From Candidatus Alcyoniella australis (lineage in GTDB: Bacteria; Lernaellota; Lernaellaia; JAVCCG01; Alcyoniellaceae), in contig JAVCCG010000031.1 in assembly GCA_030765605.1 (NCBI GenBank), positions 1 through 7,833 of the forward strand: a DNA stretch of 7,833 bases. Reading direction: 5' to 3'. Positions 1-7,833 of this stretch are shown here, one piece after another. The notes under the pieces were generated by a model. The model was not told where the DNA came from. It worked only from the letters and a program-made list of their open reading frames with translations, and did not search any database. The stretch's first letter is position 1; each line of letters starts with the position of its first letter. Made by a program: the position numbers and the translations under genes.

Positions 1-2398
1 CCAACAGCGCCAGCAGCTTGAGCAGCGTAGGTCGAAGGTCGAAGGTCGCGCCCTTGTAGGTGACGCAGTGCAGCCTGAGGTTTAGGACCAAGCTGGGCAT
101 CGGATCGTCGGTAGCCTCGGGCCGTACAGCATCCATTGGAGCAGCATCGATCTCCTGAGGTACCAGCGCAGACTCCTGCTCCCGCACCTGGGCGAATAGC
201 CGGGTGCCTGTCTTGGGCCCCAGGATTTCGCAGAGCCGCTCCTCGGCCGCCTGCTCCAACGCGTCCTGGCCAACGATGCCAGCATCGACCAGCTTGCGTA
301 GGGCTGCCCGACCGAGGCCGCGCAGCTTCATGCCTACCAGCTCCACGGCATCGCCCCGGATACCCTGTGACAGCCTCAGCGACAGATCATGCACCTGCTC
401 GACCTGCTTCTCTCCCCACCCCGCAATCTCGCAGACCAGCGCCATGCCGTGCATCAGCCAATCAAACTCTTCGGAGACCCGCCGCACCGCGCCGCCCCAG
501 ACCCGGTAGTTCAGCTCGATCTTCTTGATCGGCATCTCTTCGATCCAGTTGTCCATCATGAGCGCGAGCTTGTAGCGCTTGTTTGCCTCGTAGACACAGT
601 GTGCGTCCCTGGCGATGGCCTGAAACACCGGCCACCGGCCGATCTCACGGCTGCTGGCCCTGCTCAGTACCTGCTCCCGATACCCGGCGCGCCGGTTCTC
701 CTCGGTGGACATGGAGACGTAGATGTCCTCGGCGTCATGGCAGCGCGCAGCGATCACCAGCATCTCGAGTTCCGCGGCGAAGCGGTCCTTGGCAGACTGC
801 GCCCACCGATAGAACGCATATGCGGTTCTGGGGTGCAGGCACTGGGACGCGCAGGTACGGCCCAACTCCGTGATAACCAGCTGGCCGTCCTGTTCCAGCA
901 CCGTGGCGCACGAAATGCAGATGTCCACGGCTTTATCGACGTCCTTGCGGAACTGGTCCAGCGTCTGGGTCTGCCGCCAGACCTCCTGGCCGGTGAAGCT
1001 GCCGAGCAGGAAGCGATAGAGATCGCCCCGCGTGGCGCAGAGGCCCGAGGCCACCAGGTTGACGATGTGGCTCTCCAGTGGCGCATCGGCCAGCGTCGGC
1101 TTGATCGCCTCGAACGTGCCTCCGATGTAATGCCTGGCCAACGCTCTGGCTGGGTACTCGCCTGTGCTGATCATGATCGAGCGCCCGAAGTCCGCCTCGA
1201 GCGACAGCCTCCCCGCGCGGCCGCTCATGTTCTCGTACTCGCTGCGCGTGATGTCCTCGGTGACCCAGCGCCGGTACTTGGACGAGTACTTCCACTTCTG
1301 GGAGTCAACGAACACATTCTTGGCGGGGAGGTTCATGCCCATGGCCAGGGTGGACGTGGAGAACAGCGCCTTGATCGAGCCAGCGCGGAAGTGCTTCTCG
1401 ATAAGGCGCCGCTCGGCCGGGGTCAGATCGGCGTTGTGGAAGGCGACGCCACGTGAAAACAGCTCTGACAGGATCTCGCGGGCGCCGGTGTCTTCCAGTT
1501 CTCCCAGCTCCTCGATGGCCTCGGCCGCAGCAGGCAGCGCCACGTGGTCGGCCAGAGCGCGCGCTCCGATCACCGTGGAATTGCGATCGCGCAGAAACAC
1601 AAGGCACTGCTCGCCGCTCTGGGCAAGGTGCGCGACGTTGAGCATGAGCAGACGATTGACGTTCTTGGAGGCGTCCGCGTCCCACGCCATCTCCTCGGTT
1701 CCTGTGACGCCGGAGTTGTGCTCGCGGTACTTGAACTCGCCCTGGCATAGAATGCCCTTGCGCAGTTCGACCGGCCGCTGGGTCTCGATTAGCACGCGGG
1801 CCTTGAGCCATTTCTCTAGCCGGTCGGTCTTGCCGAGCACGGCGGACAATCCCAAGATCTGCGGTCTGGCTTCCGAGGTCACGATCCTCGTGAGCAGCAC
1901 CTCGAGCCCTGGCCCGCGAAACTCATCTGTGATCATCTGCAGCTCGTCCACCACGATCAGGCCGGCGCTGCTGAGCAGGGAAGGCGTGTTTACCAGCAGG
2001 CCCTGCATCTTCTCGTAGACCACGACCGCGATGTCATAGTCGCCCGTGGCAATCCGCTGGTCGAACTCGCGGTGGTCGCGGTTGGAGATCACGACCCTGA
2101 TGCCCAGGCTTTCGTAGCGGCCCGAGAACTCGGTCCATTTCTCCTCGGCCAGTGATTTCTGCGGCACAAGGTAGAACGCCTTGCGCTTCTCCCGCGCTGC
2201 CTTGACCGCGGCCATCTCTCCGATGAACGTCTTGCCCGAGGATGTGGGCGCGAAGACGATCAGGTTGTGTCCGTCGAACAGCCCGTACTGCCTGACCGCC
2301 TTCTCCTGAACCGGTAGCAGCCTCTCGCCGATCTGGGCTTTCCAGAGATCGCGGACGTTCTGCTCAAGGCCATAGGCCTCCAATAGATCGACATGCAT
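1..2398 (-). CDS. Ski2/Hel308-type DEAD/DEAH-box helicase, C-terminus off the left edge
   Basis: An open frame of 799 codons runs from ATG at 2398 through base 1 without a stop, so the C-terminus is missing. SF2 motifs appear in order: a Q-motif-like LLPVQ (residues 27-31), Walker A APTSSGKT (50-57), motif II VDELQ (150-154), motif III SAV (185-187), motif IV CLVFLRD (265-271), motif V STSTLAMGMNLP (347-358) and motif VI SGRAGR (392-397). The RGPGLEVLLTR stretch (161-171) and GRAGR are typical of Ski2-like enzymes such as Hel308, Brr2 and HamB. Residues about 686-710 (GMKLRGLGRAALRKL) look like the helix-hairpin-helix of Hel308-type domain 5. A further segment (about 770-799, VTYKGATFDLRPTLLKLL) extends beyond it and resembles a winged-helix start. 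Expected activity is ATP-dependent unwinding or translocation on nucleic acid. Upstream GGGAG, 7 nt before ATG, supports the start. The gene follows lexA by 105 bp with no evident own promoter. Motif II is DELQ rather than DEAD/DEVH. The fold is sure; the biological role is not known. Confidence 0.93.
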   Translation of the reverse strand, partial: MHVDLLEAYGLEQNVRDLWKAQIGERLLPVQEKAVRQYGLFDGHNLIVFAPTSSGKTFIGEMAAVKAAREKRKAFYLVPQKSLAEEKWTEFSGRYESLGIRVVISNRDHREFDQRIATGDYDIAVVVYEKMQGLLVNTPSLLSSAGLIVVDELQMITDEFRGPGLEVLLTRIVTSEARPQILGLSAVLGKTDRLEKWLKARVLIETQRPVELRKGILCQGEFKYREHNSGVTGTEEMAWDADASKNVNRLLMLNVAHLAQSGEQCLVFLRDRNSTVIGARALADHVALPAAAEAIEELGELEDTGAREILSELFSRGVAFHNADLTPAERRLIEKHFRAGSIKALFSTSTLAMGMNLPAKNVFVDSQKWKYSSKYRRWVTEDITRSEYENMSGRAGRLSLEADFGRSIMISTGEYPARALARHYIGGTFEAIKPTLADAPLESHIVNLVASGLCATRGDLYRFLLGSFTGQEVWRQTQTLDQFRKDVDKAVDICISCATVLEQDGQLVITELGRTCASQCLHPRTAYAFYRWAQSAKDRFAAELEMLVIAARCHDAEDIYVSMSTEENRRAGYREQVLSRASSREIGRWPVFQAIARDAHCVYEANKRYKLALMMDNWIEEMPIKKIELNYRVWGGAVRRVSEEFDWLMHGMALVCEIAGWGEKQVEQVHDLSLRLSQGIRGDAVELVGMKLRGLGRAALRKLVDAGIVGQDALEQAAEERLCEILGPKTGTRLFAQVREQESALVPQEIDAAPMDAVRPEATDDPMPSLVLNLRLHCVTYKGATFDLRPTLLKLLALL

Positions 2399-2503: not shown

Positions 2504-3109
2504 TCAATACAGCTTCCGGTGCACGGCGATCACCTTGCCGAGCAAGCGGAAGTCTCCAGACGACTCGTCATAGAACATAGCTTTCAAGGACGCGTTGGCC
2601 GGCTGCAGCCTAATGCGGCCCTTCTCGCGGTAGAACCGCTTGACCGTCACCGCGCCATCGACCATGGCGATGACCGTGTCGCCGTTGTTGGCTTCGGGCT
2701 TTTGCAGCACGACGAGCAGGTCGCCGTCCTTGATGCCGTCCTCGACCATGCTGTCGCCTTTGACGTACAGCGCGAACTTTTCACCATCCGGCATGTCCGA
2801 CGGGTCGATCTTGAAGTAGCCCTCGATGTTCTCCTCGGCGTACCAGGGCGTGCCGGCCGGCGCGTAGCCCAGAATCCGCAGGGTTCCTCGGGAGACAGTA
2901 TCAACCAGCAGGTCGATCGAGCGGGCTCTGTTGGACGAGCGCCGTAGGAGGCCCTTCTTGGCCATCCGCCCGAGGTGCGCGTGGACTGTGGACGACTTGA
3001 TTCCGAACTCGTCGCCGATCTCACGTACTGTGGGCGGCATGCCGCGGTCCTCGATGAACTGGCCGATGAATTGAAGGATCTTGTGCTGCATGGCGGGGAG
3101 GTTGTTCAT
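2504..3109 (-). CDS. lexA: LexA-type SOS repressor, autocleaving
   Basis: A 201-residue protein of normal LexA length. The N-terminal winged helix (1-68) carries the LexA signature GMPPTVREIGDEFGI (23-37) followed by a recognition-helix region SSTVHAHLGRM. The cleavage site is an Ala-Gly pair (A85-G86, in YAPAGTP), and the S24-type peptidase dyad is S120 (KGDSM) and K157 (VTVKRF). All parts needed for RecA-stimulated self-cleavage are therefore present. The start at 3109 was chosen because AAAGGGG lies just upstream and because an earlier in-frame ATG at 3139 lies inside the -10 box of the promoter. The gene is preceded by a promoter containing an inverted repeat, so autorepression is expected, and it is followed in the same direction by a helicase. 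It may be an element-borne second LexA rather than the host's chromosomal one. Family assignment is firm; regulatory targets are inferred. Confidence 0.96.
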   Translation of the reverse strand: MNNLPAMQHKILQFIGQFIEDRGMPPTVREIGDEFGIKSSTVHAHLGRMAKKGLLRRSSNRARSIDLLVDTVSRGTLRILGYAPAGTPWYAEENIEGYFKIDPSDMPDGEKFALYVKGDSMVEDGIKDGDLLVVLQKPEANNGDTVIAMVDGAVTVKRFYREKGRIRLQPANASLKAMFYDESSGDFRLLGKVIAVHRKLY

Positions 3110-3134
3110 GGTGGCCCCTTTACTTCTTGGGGCA

Positions 3135-3163
3135 AGCATAGGCTAACGGATGTTAGCTGTCAA
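3135..3163 (-). promoter_or_regulatory. lexA promoter (sigma70-like)
   Basis: On the minus strand a perfect -35 TTGACA (3163-3158) is followed by a 17-nt spacer and a -10 TATGCT (3140-3135, 4 of 6 consensus). Transcription would begin near 3128, about 19 nt before the lexA ATG at 3109, which fits the chosen ribosome binding site. It lies downstream of the PIN gene stop (3209), so lexA and the helicase can be transcribed independently of the ImmA/IrrE-PIN unit. Confidence 0.8.
3142..3157. promoter_or_regulatory. Candidate LexA operator (SOS box) inside the lexA promoter
   Basis: GCTAACGGATGTTAGC is a perfect inverted repeat with 6-bp arms and a 4-bp centre, filling almost exactly the spacer between -35 and -10 of lexA. 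Bound repressor would block polymerase. The AAC-N4-GTT core and 4-bp spacing match the known Gram-positive-type SOS box (GAAC-N4-GTTC), but the outer bases differ. No second full copy was seen in the window. Autoregulation by the adjacent LexA is inferred from position and symmetry. Confidence 0.78.
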
Positions 3164-3208: not shown

Positions 3209-3712
3209 CTACCGCATCCCTAGTCGATCTTTGAAGCGGCGAATGATCTCTTCGGTTATGAACCGGGGATTTGATCGCTGAATGGCCAGCGCCGTTTCCA
3301 ATGCGACCTTGGAATCAATCACCTTTCGTTCGACCAACATGGCGAGCGGCTCCAAACCCCAGAGTACAAAGATCGAATTCGATTTGCATTCACGTCGCAG
3401 GCGACCATCGTTGGTGACGCAGGTCCAGCCACGATCTTTTGCCAGCAAGAGGCAGATCCGATCCTCGAATGACAGCGCTCCCCGTTTGGCAGCCGCCTCG
3501 AGGAGCATCTCGGTTTCCGGCATGACGAGGTCGAGACCGAGCTCAAGCAAATCACCGTGTCCGAGAGACTCGACTTCGTCCAGAACAGGCTGCGCGACCG
3601 CCACCCGACCGATGTGCCGCGCGATCAGGGTCAGCATGGAACGGTCCGACTTACAGAAGTCGATGAGGACGTTGGCGTCGAGAATCAAGAAAGTGGGCGG
3701 CGTGGGTCGCAT
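3209..3712 (-). CDS. PIN-domain nuclease, likely toxin of an ImmA/IrrE-linked pair
   Basis: A 167-residue PIN-fold protein. It has the expected acidic residues: D12 in LILDANVLID, E46 in VLDEVE, D84 in LSFEDRICLL and D102 in CVTNDGRLRREC. These would coordinate Mg2+/Mn2+ for RNA (or structure-specific) cleavage, so the active site looks intact. The C-terminal 50 residues are helical and charged and probably serve dimerisation or partner contact. The start lies only 6 bp after the stop of the XRE-ImmA/IrrE gene, with no strong ribosome binding site of its own beyond a GGTGG about 11 nt upstream, which suggests translational coupling. XRE-ImmA/IrrE genes followed by PIN-like proteins (for example DUF4411) are a recurrent toxin-antitoxin-like layout; this PIN does not obviously belong to DUF4411. 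The nuclease fold is well supported; the toxin role and substrate are inferred. Confidence 0.88.
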   Translation of the reverse strand: MRPTPPTFLILDANVLIDFCKSDRSMLTLIARHIGRVAVAQPVLDEVESLGHGDLLELGLDLVMPETEMLLEAAAKRGALSFEDRICLLLAKDRGWTCVTNDGRLRRECKSNSIFVLWGLEPLAMLVERKVIDSKVALETALAIQRSNPRFITEEIIRRFKDRLGMR

Positions 3713-3718
3713 TCGGTT

Positions 3719-4879
3719 TTAGTCCACCCACGAGGCGGTCAGGTTGCGCATGGCCTCCAGGTCGATGTTGAGGATTTCTGCGCCACGGCTGAGGGAGATG
3801 TCTTCCTGTTCGATGGCGATACGCACGAGGCGTTTGAGCCGGTCCTCGACAAAATCGTCGGTGGACAGGTGTGCCGGTTCGTAGGCCTGTAGCGATTCCG
3901 ACATCTCGCGGCGGAAACCGGCGGGATCGAGCGCCTCGGGTTCGGCATTGTGCGGCAACGACCGGCCGTATCTCCGTATATATCCGCCGTTGAAGTTTCT
4001 CCAAACGTCGCTGCCGACCTCGCCTTTTTCGACAAGCCGCGCCAGCACGGTTTTATAACTCACGCGGAAAATGCGCTTGGTCTTCAGGACGCGGTCGATG
4101 AATGGAAGGCCATAGGACTCTCCCCATTCCTTTTCGAAGACGCCTTGCGGCATCAGGAAGTGACTGGCAAAGATGTTGGCCTCCACTTCCTGTGCATCGT
4201 CCTCCTGGTTCTGGCTCACGTCGTAGGCTTCCAGATGCAGCAGCAGGTGTCCAAGCTCATGCGCCGCGCTGAATATCCACCGTTCGACTGGAATCCGGTC
4301 CCAGACGTTGACCACAATGGCCGGCCCGCCATCCGCCTTACCTACGGAAAGCCCGAAGAAAGAGTCCGAGGTGAGCCGGTAGGGAAAGACCTTGATGCCG
4401 CACGATTCGAGCAGACCGCAGATGTCGCGGATCAGTTCGTCTTCCGACAACTCTAGAAGTCGCCGCGCTTTGTCCGCTGCAGATTTCGCCTGATCAAAGC
4501 CGGGGCGGATCTTCTTCAGCGAGCGAGCCAGGGCCTTAAATTTATAGGGAATGGTATCGTCGACGATCTTCTCCAGTTGATTGAAGTTTTCCAACCAGAC
4601 GGCAACATCCGCGAGAATTTGTTCGCGGCTTGTCATCTTCTTCGTGGCTCGGAATCGCACCGCCGATAGGGTGCGCACCGGTGCGACCAGATCCTGCAGC
4701 TTAACCTCGAGCGCCCGCGCCAGCGACAGCAGGGTCTCGGCTTTGGGTACTGACTCACCGGTCTCGATCTTGCGGTAACTGGGTCGGCTGATCCCAGCGT
4801 TAGCCGCCAGCGCTCCCTGACTAAGCTTCTTGTGCCTCCTTAGTCGTAAGAGATTTGCGCCAATAATGTTGTCAGCCAT
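3719..4879 (-). CDS. XRE-family HTH regulator fused to ImmA/IrrE metallopeptidase
   Basis: A 386-residue protein in three parts. Residues 8-65 are an XRE/Cro HTH (LRRHKKLSQGALAANAGISR, then YRKIETGESVPKAETLLSLA). Residues about 145-250 are an ImmA/IrrE (COG2856) zinc peptidase with the motif HELGH (207-211), a distal EVEANIFASHFLMP (E231/E233 region, third zinc ligand) and FFGLSV before it. The C-terminus (about 350-386, RLKRLVRIAIEQEDISLSRGAEILNIDLEAMR) looks like a short HTH of the kind seen in UPF0175-like antitoxins. The start is well supported: GGGAGGG sits 5 nt before ATG 4879. It heads an operon with the PIN nuclease. Family members cleave a repressor or antitoxin in response to stress (ImmA cleaves ImmR, IrrE cleaves DdrO). 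Here the DNA-binding and protease parts are one chain, so it may act as both autorepressor and antitoxin. The substrate is unknown. Confidence 0.93.
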   Translation of the reverse strand: MADNIIGANLLRLRRHKKLSQGALAANAGISRPSYRKIETGESVPKAETLLSLARALEVKLQDLVAPVRTLSAVRFRATKKMTSREQILADVAVWLENFNQLEKIVDDTIPYKFKALARSLKKIRPGFDQAKSAADKARRLLELSEDELIRDICGLLESCGIKVFPYRLTSDSFFGLSVGKADGGPAIVVNVWDRIPVERWIFSAAHELGHLLLHLEAYDVSQNQEDDAQEVEANIFASHFLMPQGVFEKEWGESYGLPFIDRVLKTKRIFRVSYKTVLARLVEKGEVGSDVWRNFNGGYIRRYGRSLPHNAEPEALDPAGFRREMSESLQAYEPAHLSTDDFVEDRLKRLVRIAIEQEDISLSRGAEILNIDLEAMRNLTASWVD

Positions 4880-4969: not shown

Positions 4970-5224
4970 CTAGAAACTCGCCGTTAAGTCGTTTGGCGCT
5001 TGCTCGACGCCCAATAACTCGGGCACCGGCACTCCGAAGAACTCAGCCACTCTCCGCTGAGTCGCATGAACACGCGGCACCCTACCGCGGATCTCCCAGT
5101 TGGCCACGCTGCACTCGTTCATGCCCAGGTTGCGCGCCAGTTCCTTCTTGGTGAGCCGGTTTTTCGTGCGCAGCCACTGGACGCGCTCGCCAAACGTGCT
5201 CATCTCCGAGAATTCCCTGGTCAT
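4970..5224 (-). other. Possible internal translation start giving a free 84-residue HTH protein
   Basis: Within the recombinase frame, M540 (ATG at 5224-5222) is preceded on the minus strand by AAGGA with a 7-nt spacing, close to an ideal ribosome binding site. Translation from here would give a stand-alone 84-residue protein made almost wholly of the XRE-type HTH. Its size and type match small phage-like regulators or recombination directionality factors. A start-like signal at the domain border is seen directly; its use is inferred and could be chance. Confidence 0.3.
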
Positions 5225-6841
5225 GTGAATTTCCTTGCTCGTGTTCAGCACGATCACGAGGTCGCCGTCGCCGGCATGGGCCAGGGCCTCCTCTTTCAAG
5301 CCCAGAGCCAACTTCAGGACATCACAATGTAGATGGACGTCGATTCGGCCCTCGGGCATGGCCACGACCTTTTTTACCACGCCGGCAAGCAGCTCCTTCT
5401 GCTCCTGGATATGCAGCGCCTCGAACACCTCGCCGAACTGACTAAAGGCCTGCCGCAGGGTCTCGACATCGACCTCGCTCTGAACACCGCCGATGCTGGC
5501 TTCACACCCCAGCCTGCCTATCTCGGTCTCCAGAATCTGCTTCTCTGACTTGAGCGGTCTGGCTCGGCTCGCGGCCTCTTCCTTGTCCAGCATCCCATCC
5601 TGGTATGCGTCAAACAGCCGCTCCAGCGACTTCTCGATCTCACTGATGCGGGCCCGCAGCGATTGAGCCTGCTCATCGATCTGCCCCTGGAGGTACTCCT
5701 TACTGGCGATCAGCTCGCGGGCCTTCTCGATGACCAGAGTCGGGTCAGCCGCCCATTGAGCAATCGCATCCACAACCGCCCGCTCAGTACCGAATCTGTT
5801 TACCGTGAGGCCCTGGCAGACACTCGGCCCCTTGGATTGTCGCCAACTGCAGCGGTAGTAAGCATACCTACCGCCGCCAGGCTGCTGCTTCCAGTGGTTG
5901 TACCCATTCATGGCTCCACCGCATCGGCCGCATCTGATCAGGCCGGAAAGCAGATAATCTGAGCGCTTGTTGCGCGGGTGCAGGCCAGCCTCGTGGTTCA
6001 GGATCTTCTGGGCATGCTGCCAATCGCTCTTACTGACGATCTCCGGCAGGACGCCCTCGACCACGATCCATTCCTTTTTCGGCCGCGGGATCGAAGTACT
6101 GCTCGTGCCTCTGCGCTTGTTGTACGTGGCGGCCCCGTAGTAGCTCGGGTTGCGCAGAACGCGCCGGACACTGGTCGTGCTCCAGCTCTTGGCGTATCGC
6201 GGCTTTGAGCCCTGGGCATTGAGGCAGTGCGTGATGCTGCTGATGCTGCGGTGCTCGAGATAGAACTCGAAGATCTTCTTGGCCCACTGAGCCTCATTCT
6301 CGCAGAGCAGCAGCTTGCCGCCTTCCGCACGATACCCATAGGGCACTATGCCGCCGTTCCACTTGCCCTCCTTGGCGCGCACGAGCATGTGCTCGCGCAC
6401 GCGGTCGGCGATCATCTCCCGCTCGAACTGCGCGAACGACCCGAGGATGTTCAGGGTGAGGCGGCCCATGGACGTGGACGTATCGAAATTCTGGGAGGTG
6501 GAGACAAAGGCGATACCCAGCCTCTCCAGAGTGCCGAGCAGGCCCAGCAGGTCGACCAGGTTGCGGCTGATGCGGTCGAGCTTCGTGACGATCAAGACGC
6601 CGAATTTCCCCGCCTTGGCGTCGGCCATCATGCGCAGGTACTCGAGCCGGTTCTCAGTGCGGCTGCCCGAGAAGCCCGCGTCGCAGTAGTGATCGTGAAC
6701 TTTCAGCTCGTGGTAGCGGCAGTAGTCGCGCAGCACCTTCTCCTGGGTGGAGAGCGAGTCGGCCTGCACCTGCATATCGGTCGACACGCGGGTGTAGAGC
6801 GCGGCGACCATGCCGGTTTCGAATCTACGATTGCTTAGCAT
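4970..6841 (-). CDS. Large serine recombinase with C-terminal XRE-type HTH domain
   Basis: A 623-residue large serine recombinase (integrase/excisionase class). The resolvase domain (about 12-160) has ALYTRVSTDMQ with catalytic S20 and R18, then KLDRISRN with R90 and R93. A Recombinase domain (about 165-290, IVPYGYRAEGG, RRVLRNPSYYG) follows, then a zinc ribbon with C304, C307, C331 and C342, and a coiled coil (about 375-460). Family members usually end after the coiled coil and a short tail. Here residues 547-611 form an extra XRE-like HTH (FGERVQWLRTKNRLTKKELA, then SVANWEIRG), ending PVPELLG. The start at 6841 has AGGAGG 4 nt upstream; the in-frame M11 has none. The enzyme recombines specific attP/attB-like sites to integrate or excise DNA. 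The fused HTH could autoregulate, recognise an accessory site or control directionality. Target sites are not identified in this window. Confidence 0.95.
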   Translation of the reverse strand: MLSNRRFETGMVAALYTRVSTDMQVQADSLSTQEKVLRDYCRYHELKVHDHYCDAGFSGSRTENRLEYLRMMADAKAGKFGVLIVTKLDRISRNLVDLLGLLGTLERLGIAFVSTSQNFDTSTSMGRLTLNILGSFAQFEREMIADRVREHMLVRAKEGKWNGGIVPYGYRAEGGKLLLCENEAQWAKKIFEFYLEHRSISSITHCLNAQGSKPRYAKSWSTTSVRRVLRNPSYYGAATYNKRRGTSSTSIPRPKKEWIVVEGVLPEIVSKSDWQHAQKILNHEAGLHPRNKRSDYLLSGLIRCGRCGGAMNGYNHWKQQPGGGRYAYYRCSWRQSKGPSVCQGLTVNRFGTERAVVDAIAQWAADPTLVIEKARELIASKEYLQGQIDEQAQSLRARISEIEKSLERLFDAYQDGMLDKEEAASRARPLKSEKQILETEIGRLGCEASIGGVQSEVDVETLRQAFSQFGEVFEALHIQEQKELLAGVVKKVVAMPEGRIDVHLHCDVLKLALGLKEEALAHAGDGDLVIVLNTSKEIHMTREFSEMSTFGERVQWLRTKNRLTKKELARNLGMNECSVANWEIRGRVPRVHATQRRVAEFFGVPVPELLGVEQAPNDLTASF

Positions 6842-6857: not shown

Positions 6858-6916
6858 AGGTCATACCTCGTTGGGACACATCATCAAGGCTTTCTTTATA
6901 GCGAGGAGCGTGCCAT

Positions 6917-6932
6917 GCACGGCCGGCCGTGC
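6917..6932. repeat. Perfect 16-bp palindrome upstream of the recombinase, candidate operator or core site
   Basis: GCACGGCCGGCCGTGC is a perfect palindrome whose centre contains two GGCC units, the same tetramer that recurs in the repeat array about 100 bp to the right. A second small hairpin, GTGC-CAT-GCAC (6910-6920), shares its left arm. It lies 76 bp upstream of the recombinase start, suited to an operator for the fused HTH or to an accessory binding site. Confidence 0.5.
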
Positions 6933-7016
6933 GTTTCTGTAAGTAGTTGGAAATTAAGGATTCATGTTTATAGAGGCCTGACAATTTCCTCTGCCCGCAT
7001 TTCGTTAGCGATAAGA

Positions 7017-7128
7017 AAACGGCCTTAGAAATCATAAAAGGGGCCTTAGAAATTAAAAAAAGGCCCTTCGAATACATGGAAAGGGCCTTAGAGAATATTG
7101 CTTTTCGGGGAAAACGGCCCTGAAAATA
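7017..7128. repeat. Five GGCC motifs with A-tracts, about 21-bp spacing
   Basis: GGCC occurs at 7021, 7042, 7062, 7084 and 7116, giving steps of 21, 20, 22 and 32 bp. Each copy is preceded by a run of about three to seven A residues (a single base may intervene) and followed by a T/A-rich GAAA-like tail. A loose consensus is AAAA-N-GGCC-Y-T-NN-GAA. Adjacent copies also form inverted repeats: GGGCCTT (7041-7047) with AAGGCCC (7060-7066), and GGCCCTT (7062-7068) with AAGGGCC (7081-7087), each with a 12-nt loop. A TTTTC-GGG-GAAAA hairpin (7102-7114) is nested between copies 4 and 5. Two-turn phasing puts the copies on one face of the helix, as for iterons or arrays of binding sites. It lacks the conserved repeats and equal unique spacers of a CRISPR array. 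Confidence 0.65.
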
Positions 7129-7214: not shown

Positions 7215-7288
7215 GATAGCTTTTCAGTTTCAAGTACTTACATTGCTCCCCCGACACCTGGCACGACTTGTGTACTGAGAAGCGCTCC

Positions 7289-7501
7289 ATGAGCGCCATA
7301 GCAATCAACCAAGTCCGCATTTACAACGCAGCACTCTCCGAGGATCAGGTACAGCAGCGGGCTGCCGATGTCGTACGACTGTTGGCCCTGGGCCTGGTGC
7401 GTTCGCTGGGAAAAAGGCCGGCTCAGCAGAGCAGCCACGAGCCGATCGCCGCTGATCGCCAGGAGCCCACCCTGGGTTCCGGTTCCGGAGAGATCCGCTG
7501 A
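7289..7501 (+). CDS. Hypothetical 70-residue protein
   Basis: A small protein without a recognised family. Residues 8-40 (QVRIYNAALSEDQVQQRAAD, then VVRLLALGLVRSL) are probably two helices; the second is hydrophobic with arginines at the ends, more like an amphipathic interaction helix than a membrane span. The C-terminal 30 residues are polar, with Gly/Ser/Pro, and probably disordered. ATG at 7289 is favoured because GAGAAG lies 6 nt upstream; a TTG at 7268 would add seven residues but has no better signal. The stop overlaps the next start by one base (TGATG), a classic translationally coupled arrangement that supports both being real. It is the first gene rightward from the structured gap, divergent from the recombinase. 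Function is unknown; a small accessory or regulatory protein of the element is possible. Confidence 0.6.
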   Translation: MSAIAINQVRIYNAALSEDQVQQRAADVVRLLALGLVRSLGKRPAQQSSHEPIAADRQEPTLGSGSGEIR

Positions 7502-7833
7502 TGCCCCGGCGGCCGGCGAAATCCCCGAACGCCTACATCGGCGCAGAGGCCATGCGGAGCTTCCTGGTCGATCACTTCCAGGCCCACGCCATCAAGGGCG
7601 ATCTCAAGCCTGGCCGCAAATACCAGGTCTTCGAAGCCTCGCCCACGCAGATGAGAATCCGCACGCGCGGCAAGAGCAGCCGCCGGGTCCAGACGCTGTT
7701 CGCGGACCTGGTGACCTGCAAGAGCCTGCGATACGGAGAGTTCCGCCGCGTCGATCTGTTCTGGGGAGTCGGGCGCAAGGACAAGGAAGCCGGCGCGAAG
7801 CCCCACCGGACAAAGCGCGCGGCCGCAGACGGC
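7501..7833 (+). CDS. Hypothetical protein, C-terminus off the right edge
   Basis: An open frame of 111 codons starts at ATG 7501, with GGAG 10 nt upstream, and reaches the window end without a stop. The third positions are strongly G/C, as in the other genes, which supports coding. The N-terminus is basic (MPRRPAKSPN). Residues about 37-60 (KPGRKYQVFEASPTQMRIRT) and 65-93 (VQTLFADLVTCKSLRYGEFR, RVDLFWGVG) suggest a small beta-rich fold, and the tail is basic (KEAGAKPHRTKRA). The overall positive charge hints at nucleic-acid binding, but no family is recognised. It overlaps the preceding small gene by one base and is probably co-translated with it. Confidence 0.65.
   Translation, partial: MPRRPAKSPNAYIGAEAMRSFLVDHFQAHAIKGDLKPGRKYQVFEASPTQMRIRTRGKSSRRVQTLFADLVTCKSLRYGEFRRVDLFWGVGRKDKEAGAKPHRTKRAAADG

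Follow-up and report, generated by a model that had tools for sequence, protein, structure and literature searches.

A phased repeat array in a prophage control region: a candidate enhancer for a phage-encoded sigma-54 activator

In the control region of an element that is most likely a prophage, we observed an array of phased GGCC units with conserved spacing. Sigma-54 promoter-like sites are present next to it, the elements that carry it also have a gene for an enhancer-binding protein (bEBP), and the host, like every one of the 7 genomes of the phylum examined, has rpoN. Because arrays, promoter-like sites and bEBP genes occur together in rpoN-bearing hosts, and three related elements in which no bEBP was found show no array in the regions scanned, we consider it probable that the phased sites are the enhancer (UAS) of the prophage bEBP and serve divergent sigma-54 promoters of the recombinase gene and the early operon. 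Among the roles offered in the initial annotation, a regulator array is the best supported; the likely regulator, a sigma-54 enhancer-binding protein, was not named there.

By the window, we mean the entire analyzed stretch of 7,833 nucleotides, which is the whole contig G000:C31. On its minus strand it carries the genes of a helicase, LexA, a PIN protein, an XRE/ImmA protein and a serine recombinase, and on its plus strand ORF1 and ORF2 (Table 1). The array is placed between the recombinase gene and the early operon. Contigs G001:C57 and G005:C25 show the same gene order, which continues into PD-(D/E)XK nuclease, RecD2 and primase genes, followed in G001 by a small-terminase-like gene. This gene order and the small-terminase-like gene point to a prophage as the most likely identity of the element. 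Contig C49 of the window's genome opens with the last 75 residues of the helicase, including its winged helix-turn-helix (wHTH), followed by a nuclease-like ORF and the bEBP gene. Since the helicase gene has its final part at the start of C49, this contig very likely joins the window at its left end.

Table 1. Features of the window discussed in the text, with positions counted from its first nucleotide.
Feature	Position	Strand	Remarks
Element helicase, runs off the contig	2..2398	-	
LexA-like repressor of the element	2504..3139	-	56% identical to the G001 protein
LexA operator candidate GCTAAC-N4-GTTAGC	3142..3157	.	upstream of prophage lexA; arms shared with G001 and G005
Large serine recombinase with C-terminal XRE-like HTH	4970..6841	-	Resolvase, Recombinase, Zn_ribbon_recom, HTH_31; phrog_95 integrase
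71-bp block containing the leftward promoter-like site and the first part of the recombinase leader	6864..6934	-	
Leftward sigma-54 -24/-12-like promoter TGGCACGCTCCTCGCT, facing the recombinase	6900..6915	-	1/11 positions mismatched; 2/2000 shuffles
Five-unit array, proposed enhancer (UAS)	7012..7128	.	core AAA-nn-GGCC-YT
Position of the rightward sigma-54-like promoter	7259..7273	+	TGGCATCCCTCTTGC in G001 and G005; the window has the degenerate TGGCACGACTTGTGT
First early-operon gene, ORF1 (small conserved protein)	7289..7501	+	
ORF2, cut by the contig end	7501..7833	+	

The array is a real feature. Its GGCC motifs are found at positions 7021, 7042, 7062, 7084 and 7116 (steps of 21, 20, 22 and 32 bp), each led by 3–7 A residues. 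This confirms the initial description of five A-tract-led motifs at 20–22 bp with a last step of 32 bp, as does the self-match of the intergenic sequence, which peaks at lag 21 with 42 of 60 positions (mean of 26.6, SD of 1.6 and maximum of 33 among shuffles), a score reached by none of the 1000 dinucleotide shuffles. The repeated sites are in helical register, as in a sigma-54 enhancer array. The array had also been called unlike its surroundings, and it is: its GC content is 40% versus 60% for the window, and nowhere else in the window do five GGCC motifs fall within 112 bp. The inverted repeats reported for adjacent units are present as AAGGCCC/GGGCCTT pairs, but they are largely a consequence of GGCC being its own reverse complement.

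The predicted curvature was only weakly borne out for this copy. In a wedge model, the window array curves by 48 degrees per 105 bp. This is more than for 97% of the window, but shuffling the same sequence gave at least as much curvature in 100 of 300 cases. Since the shuffles are not exceeded, curvature is no strong feature of the window copy; the model suggests a modest bend and does not support a strong one. The array of G006 is clearly curved under the same model (122 degrees, with none of 300 shuffles as curved).

The search beside homologous recombinases that had been suggested for this array found it again in G001 and G005. In both, it occupies the same position and is better preserved, being built of units TTTTGCAAAAnGGCCTTT with a 21-bp period and the same final step of 32 bp. 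The window copy has lost the TTTTGC half of the unit and kept the A-tract, GGCC and period. Contig G006:C144 carries a seven-unit array of related sequence (AAATGRGCCnCTTTT; steps of 21, 22, 20, 22, 20 and 22 bp) upstream of ORF2. There, a different control module is adjacent, and an unrelated serine recombinase lies about 4 kb away. Taken whole, the window array is about 54% conserved in sequence, no better than its flanks; only the core and the spacing persist.

The two array words that we tested form arrays nowhere but at these loci (the window, G001, G005 and G006), so that the carriers comprise four elements only, related by descent. A single array-like word is found at an isolated intergenic site of G001:C150, with no array. 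Contigs G000:C108, G001:C150 and G005:C6 share ORF2, nuclease or replication genes with the element; no array was found in the regions of them that were scanned, and no bEBP was found in a search bounded by the contig ends.

A sigma-54 promoter-like site is present in all 4 of the array-bearing elements, about 84–138 bp from the nearest array edge. These distances fall within the published range for bEBP sites, given as 80–150 bp (PMC3844500) and 100–150 bp (PMC7057263). Thus -24/-12-like promoters are found at enhancer distance, with the rightward site of the window being degenerate. The leftward site TGGCACGCTCCTCGC is identical in the window, G001 and G005 (1 mismatch each; 2–6 of 2000 shuffles) and lies inside the best-conserved block of the region. 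This 71-bp block is 89–90% identical to G001 and G005, versus about 50% in the remaining intergenic region. The rightward site of G001 and G005 departs from the consensus at 1 position (7–10 of 2000 shuffles). In G006, a perfect consensus, TGGCACAGCCGTTGCT (TGGCAC-N5-TTGCT), stands before ORF2 about 93 bp downstream of the array, a match seen in none of 2000 shuffles. By eye, the TTTTGC units do not themselves qualify as -24/-12 elements, because the spacing is wrong. G006 has a second sigma-54-like promoter, TGGCATAGTCGTTGCT, at L064 2029 on the minus strand, directly before RecD2.

The bEBP gene is complete in G001:C57 and G006:C144, frameshifted in G005:C25 and truncated in G000:C49, where it ends after the AAA+ lid and has no HTH. 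Its product has the AAA+ sigma-54 interaction domain of the NtrC family (PF00158; E = 1.9e-65 in G001, 1.6e-68 in G006 and 1.1e-63 in G000) with the GAFTGA loop, which reads GAFSGA in G000, G001, G004 and G005 and GSFTGA in G006. The change from T to S in the former four is known from BkdR (PMC3162934). The G006 protein has an HTH_11 match; those of G001 and G004 have an HTH-like tail with no Pfam match. The AlphaFold model of the G001 protein is poor (mean pLDDT of 40), with only the three C-terminal helices reaching about 72. In G004, the bEBP gene lies beside the helicase gene; the control region that would hold the array was not found in this genome.

With its AAA+ sigma-54 domain and no N-terminal sensor domain, this protein resembles PspF, HrpRS and FleT-like bEBPs (group Ic; PMC3162934). 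Unlike them, it is encoded by a prophage, and its C-terminal HTH has no Pfam HTH_8 match. The copy in the window's genome, which has neither sensor nor HTH, is similar to FleT, one of the bEBPs known to have no DNA-binding domain, along with FlgR and CtcC (PMC3162934). Since this copy is without its HTH and the rightward promoter is degenerate, the circuit of the window's genome may be partly decayed or rewired.

From these sequence features we infer binding, looping, transcription and the setting of phage fate by these promoters. The PspF-like bEBP of the prophage, with no N-terminal sensor domain, would dock by its C-terminal HTH on the 21-bp-phased sites, which share one face of the helix, and would oligomerize. 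Looping of the DNA would then allow it to activate sigma-54 RNA polymerase at the divergent -24/-12 promoters. The leftward output would be the recombinase, and the rightward one the early operon with ORF1, ORF2, PD-(D/E)XK nuclease, RecD2 and primase.

Other explanations of the array have to be weighed against an enhancer. It could be an operator array for a repressor encoded by the element, either LexA, the XRE/ImmA protein or the recombinase through its HTH, that controls the divergent promoters. The array does lie between divergent genes and close to LexA, XRE/ImmA and the HTH-bearing recombinase. However, LexA has a box of its own, GCTAAC-N4-GTTAGC, before lexA in the window, G001 and G005, which is unlike the array, and near the array itself there is just one GTTAGC half-site, at 7004. 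The array is also retained in G001, although an HNH gene replaces the PIN and XRE/ImmA genes there, and in G006, on a contig with no LexA or helicase match and with a recombinase only 29% identical. We therefore regard a repressor operator as unlikely. Much the same holds for iterons of a replication origin, that is, repeats on which a phage or plasmid initiator would assemble just upstream of the replication operon, a role that had been offered for the array from the start. A period of 20–22 bp is typical of iterons, the setting is AT-rich (40% GC), and the nuclease, RecD2 and primase genes are located downstream. Yet the array does not accompany the replication module everywhere: G001:C150 carries the same genes (nuclease 90%, RecD2 91%, primase 61%), and none of its intergenic regions that were scanned shows an array. 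Iterons would also leave the co-occurrence of sigma-54 promoters and the bEBP unexplained, and we consider this role improbable.

Two further roles proposed in the initial annotation fared worse. If the serine recombinase used the array as accessory or attachment sites, the adjacency of array and recombinase gene in three genomes would be accounted for. In G006, by contrast, the array is not linked to such a gene: ORF2 lies directly downstream of it, and the recombinase, an unrelated one, is some 4 kb away. Since it persists there beside a different control module, recombinase accessory sites are very improbable, and operators specific to the recombinase or the XRE protein are unlikely as well. 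Nor is the array a junction between prophage and host, because element genes flank it on both sides in every copy. It is equally doubtful that the array forms a structured RNA or a terminator. GGCCC/GGGCC pairs are able to form hairpins, with a T7 run after one of them on the minus strand, but the fold z-scores are -1.85 and -0.41, there is no Rfam match in the array, and the pairing is explained by the self-complementary GGCC core.

The proposed enhancer has much in common with the UAS of sigma-54 promoters bound by NtrC-type bEBPs: its multiple sites are helically phased and lie about 80–250 bp ahead of -24/-12 promoters, the element that carries them also encodes an AAA+ sigma-54 activator, and the host has rpoN. 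It differs in being located in a prophage control region, in having 5–7 tightly phased direct repeats between divergent promoters, and in the AAA-GGCC-TT core of its putative sites. Known prophage switches are mostly built of sigma-70 promoters and overlapping operators, and lambdoid phages exert sigma-70 repression at overlapping operators in divergent operator regions. As in the lambdoid case, repeated protein sites are found here between divergent phage promoters and beside repressor and recombination genes; in contrast to it, sigma-54 activation from a distant enhancer is proposed.

Sigma-54 enhancers are already known, as are phage families with a bEBP-like domain. One of the latter is phrog_7998, a family of unknown function that matches the AAA+ domain of the prophage bEBP (E = 1.5e-48 and 4e-54), but for which no target sites or role are given. 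What would be new is their joint use as a prophage control region; among the open-access papers that our searches listed, judged by title or abstract, none described a prophage circuit made of its own sigma-54 activator and enhancer. There is about an even chance that these elements represent a family of temperate phages whose own sigma-54 activator switches on recombination and replication genes through a phased multi-site enhancer instead of sigma-70 operators. If so, the lytic genes of such a prophage could be off by default and be opened only by ATP-driven activation, which would tie phage induction to bEBP levels. Prophage control of this kind, if confirmed by experiment, would be unusual.

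Scans of viral contigs with the recombinase and ORF2 as queries yielded no relatives of the element. For the bEBP, two matches were found among viral contigs, and the phage records that match it look to be mostly host DNA.

Some minor observations concern the rest of the element. The PIN and XRE/ImmA genes occupy positions 3209–4879 of the window, and in G001 an HNH gene stands instead between lexA and the recombinase. The element helicase (L039 16655–19414) ends in an OmpR-type winged-helix domain at its C-terminus. Positions 7570–7833 of the window are 94% identical to C108, a second prophage-like contig of the same genome; because of this identity at the right end, the assembly probably broke at a repeat. 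A comM-like gene of about 400 codons, recognized by eye, lies a few kb past the bEBP gene in G001 (L039 9554–10786) and G004 (L085 8152–9357), and it is a possible integration site of the element.
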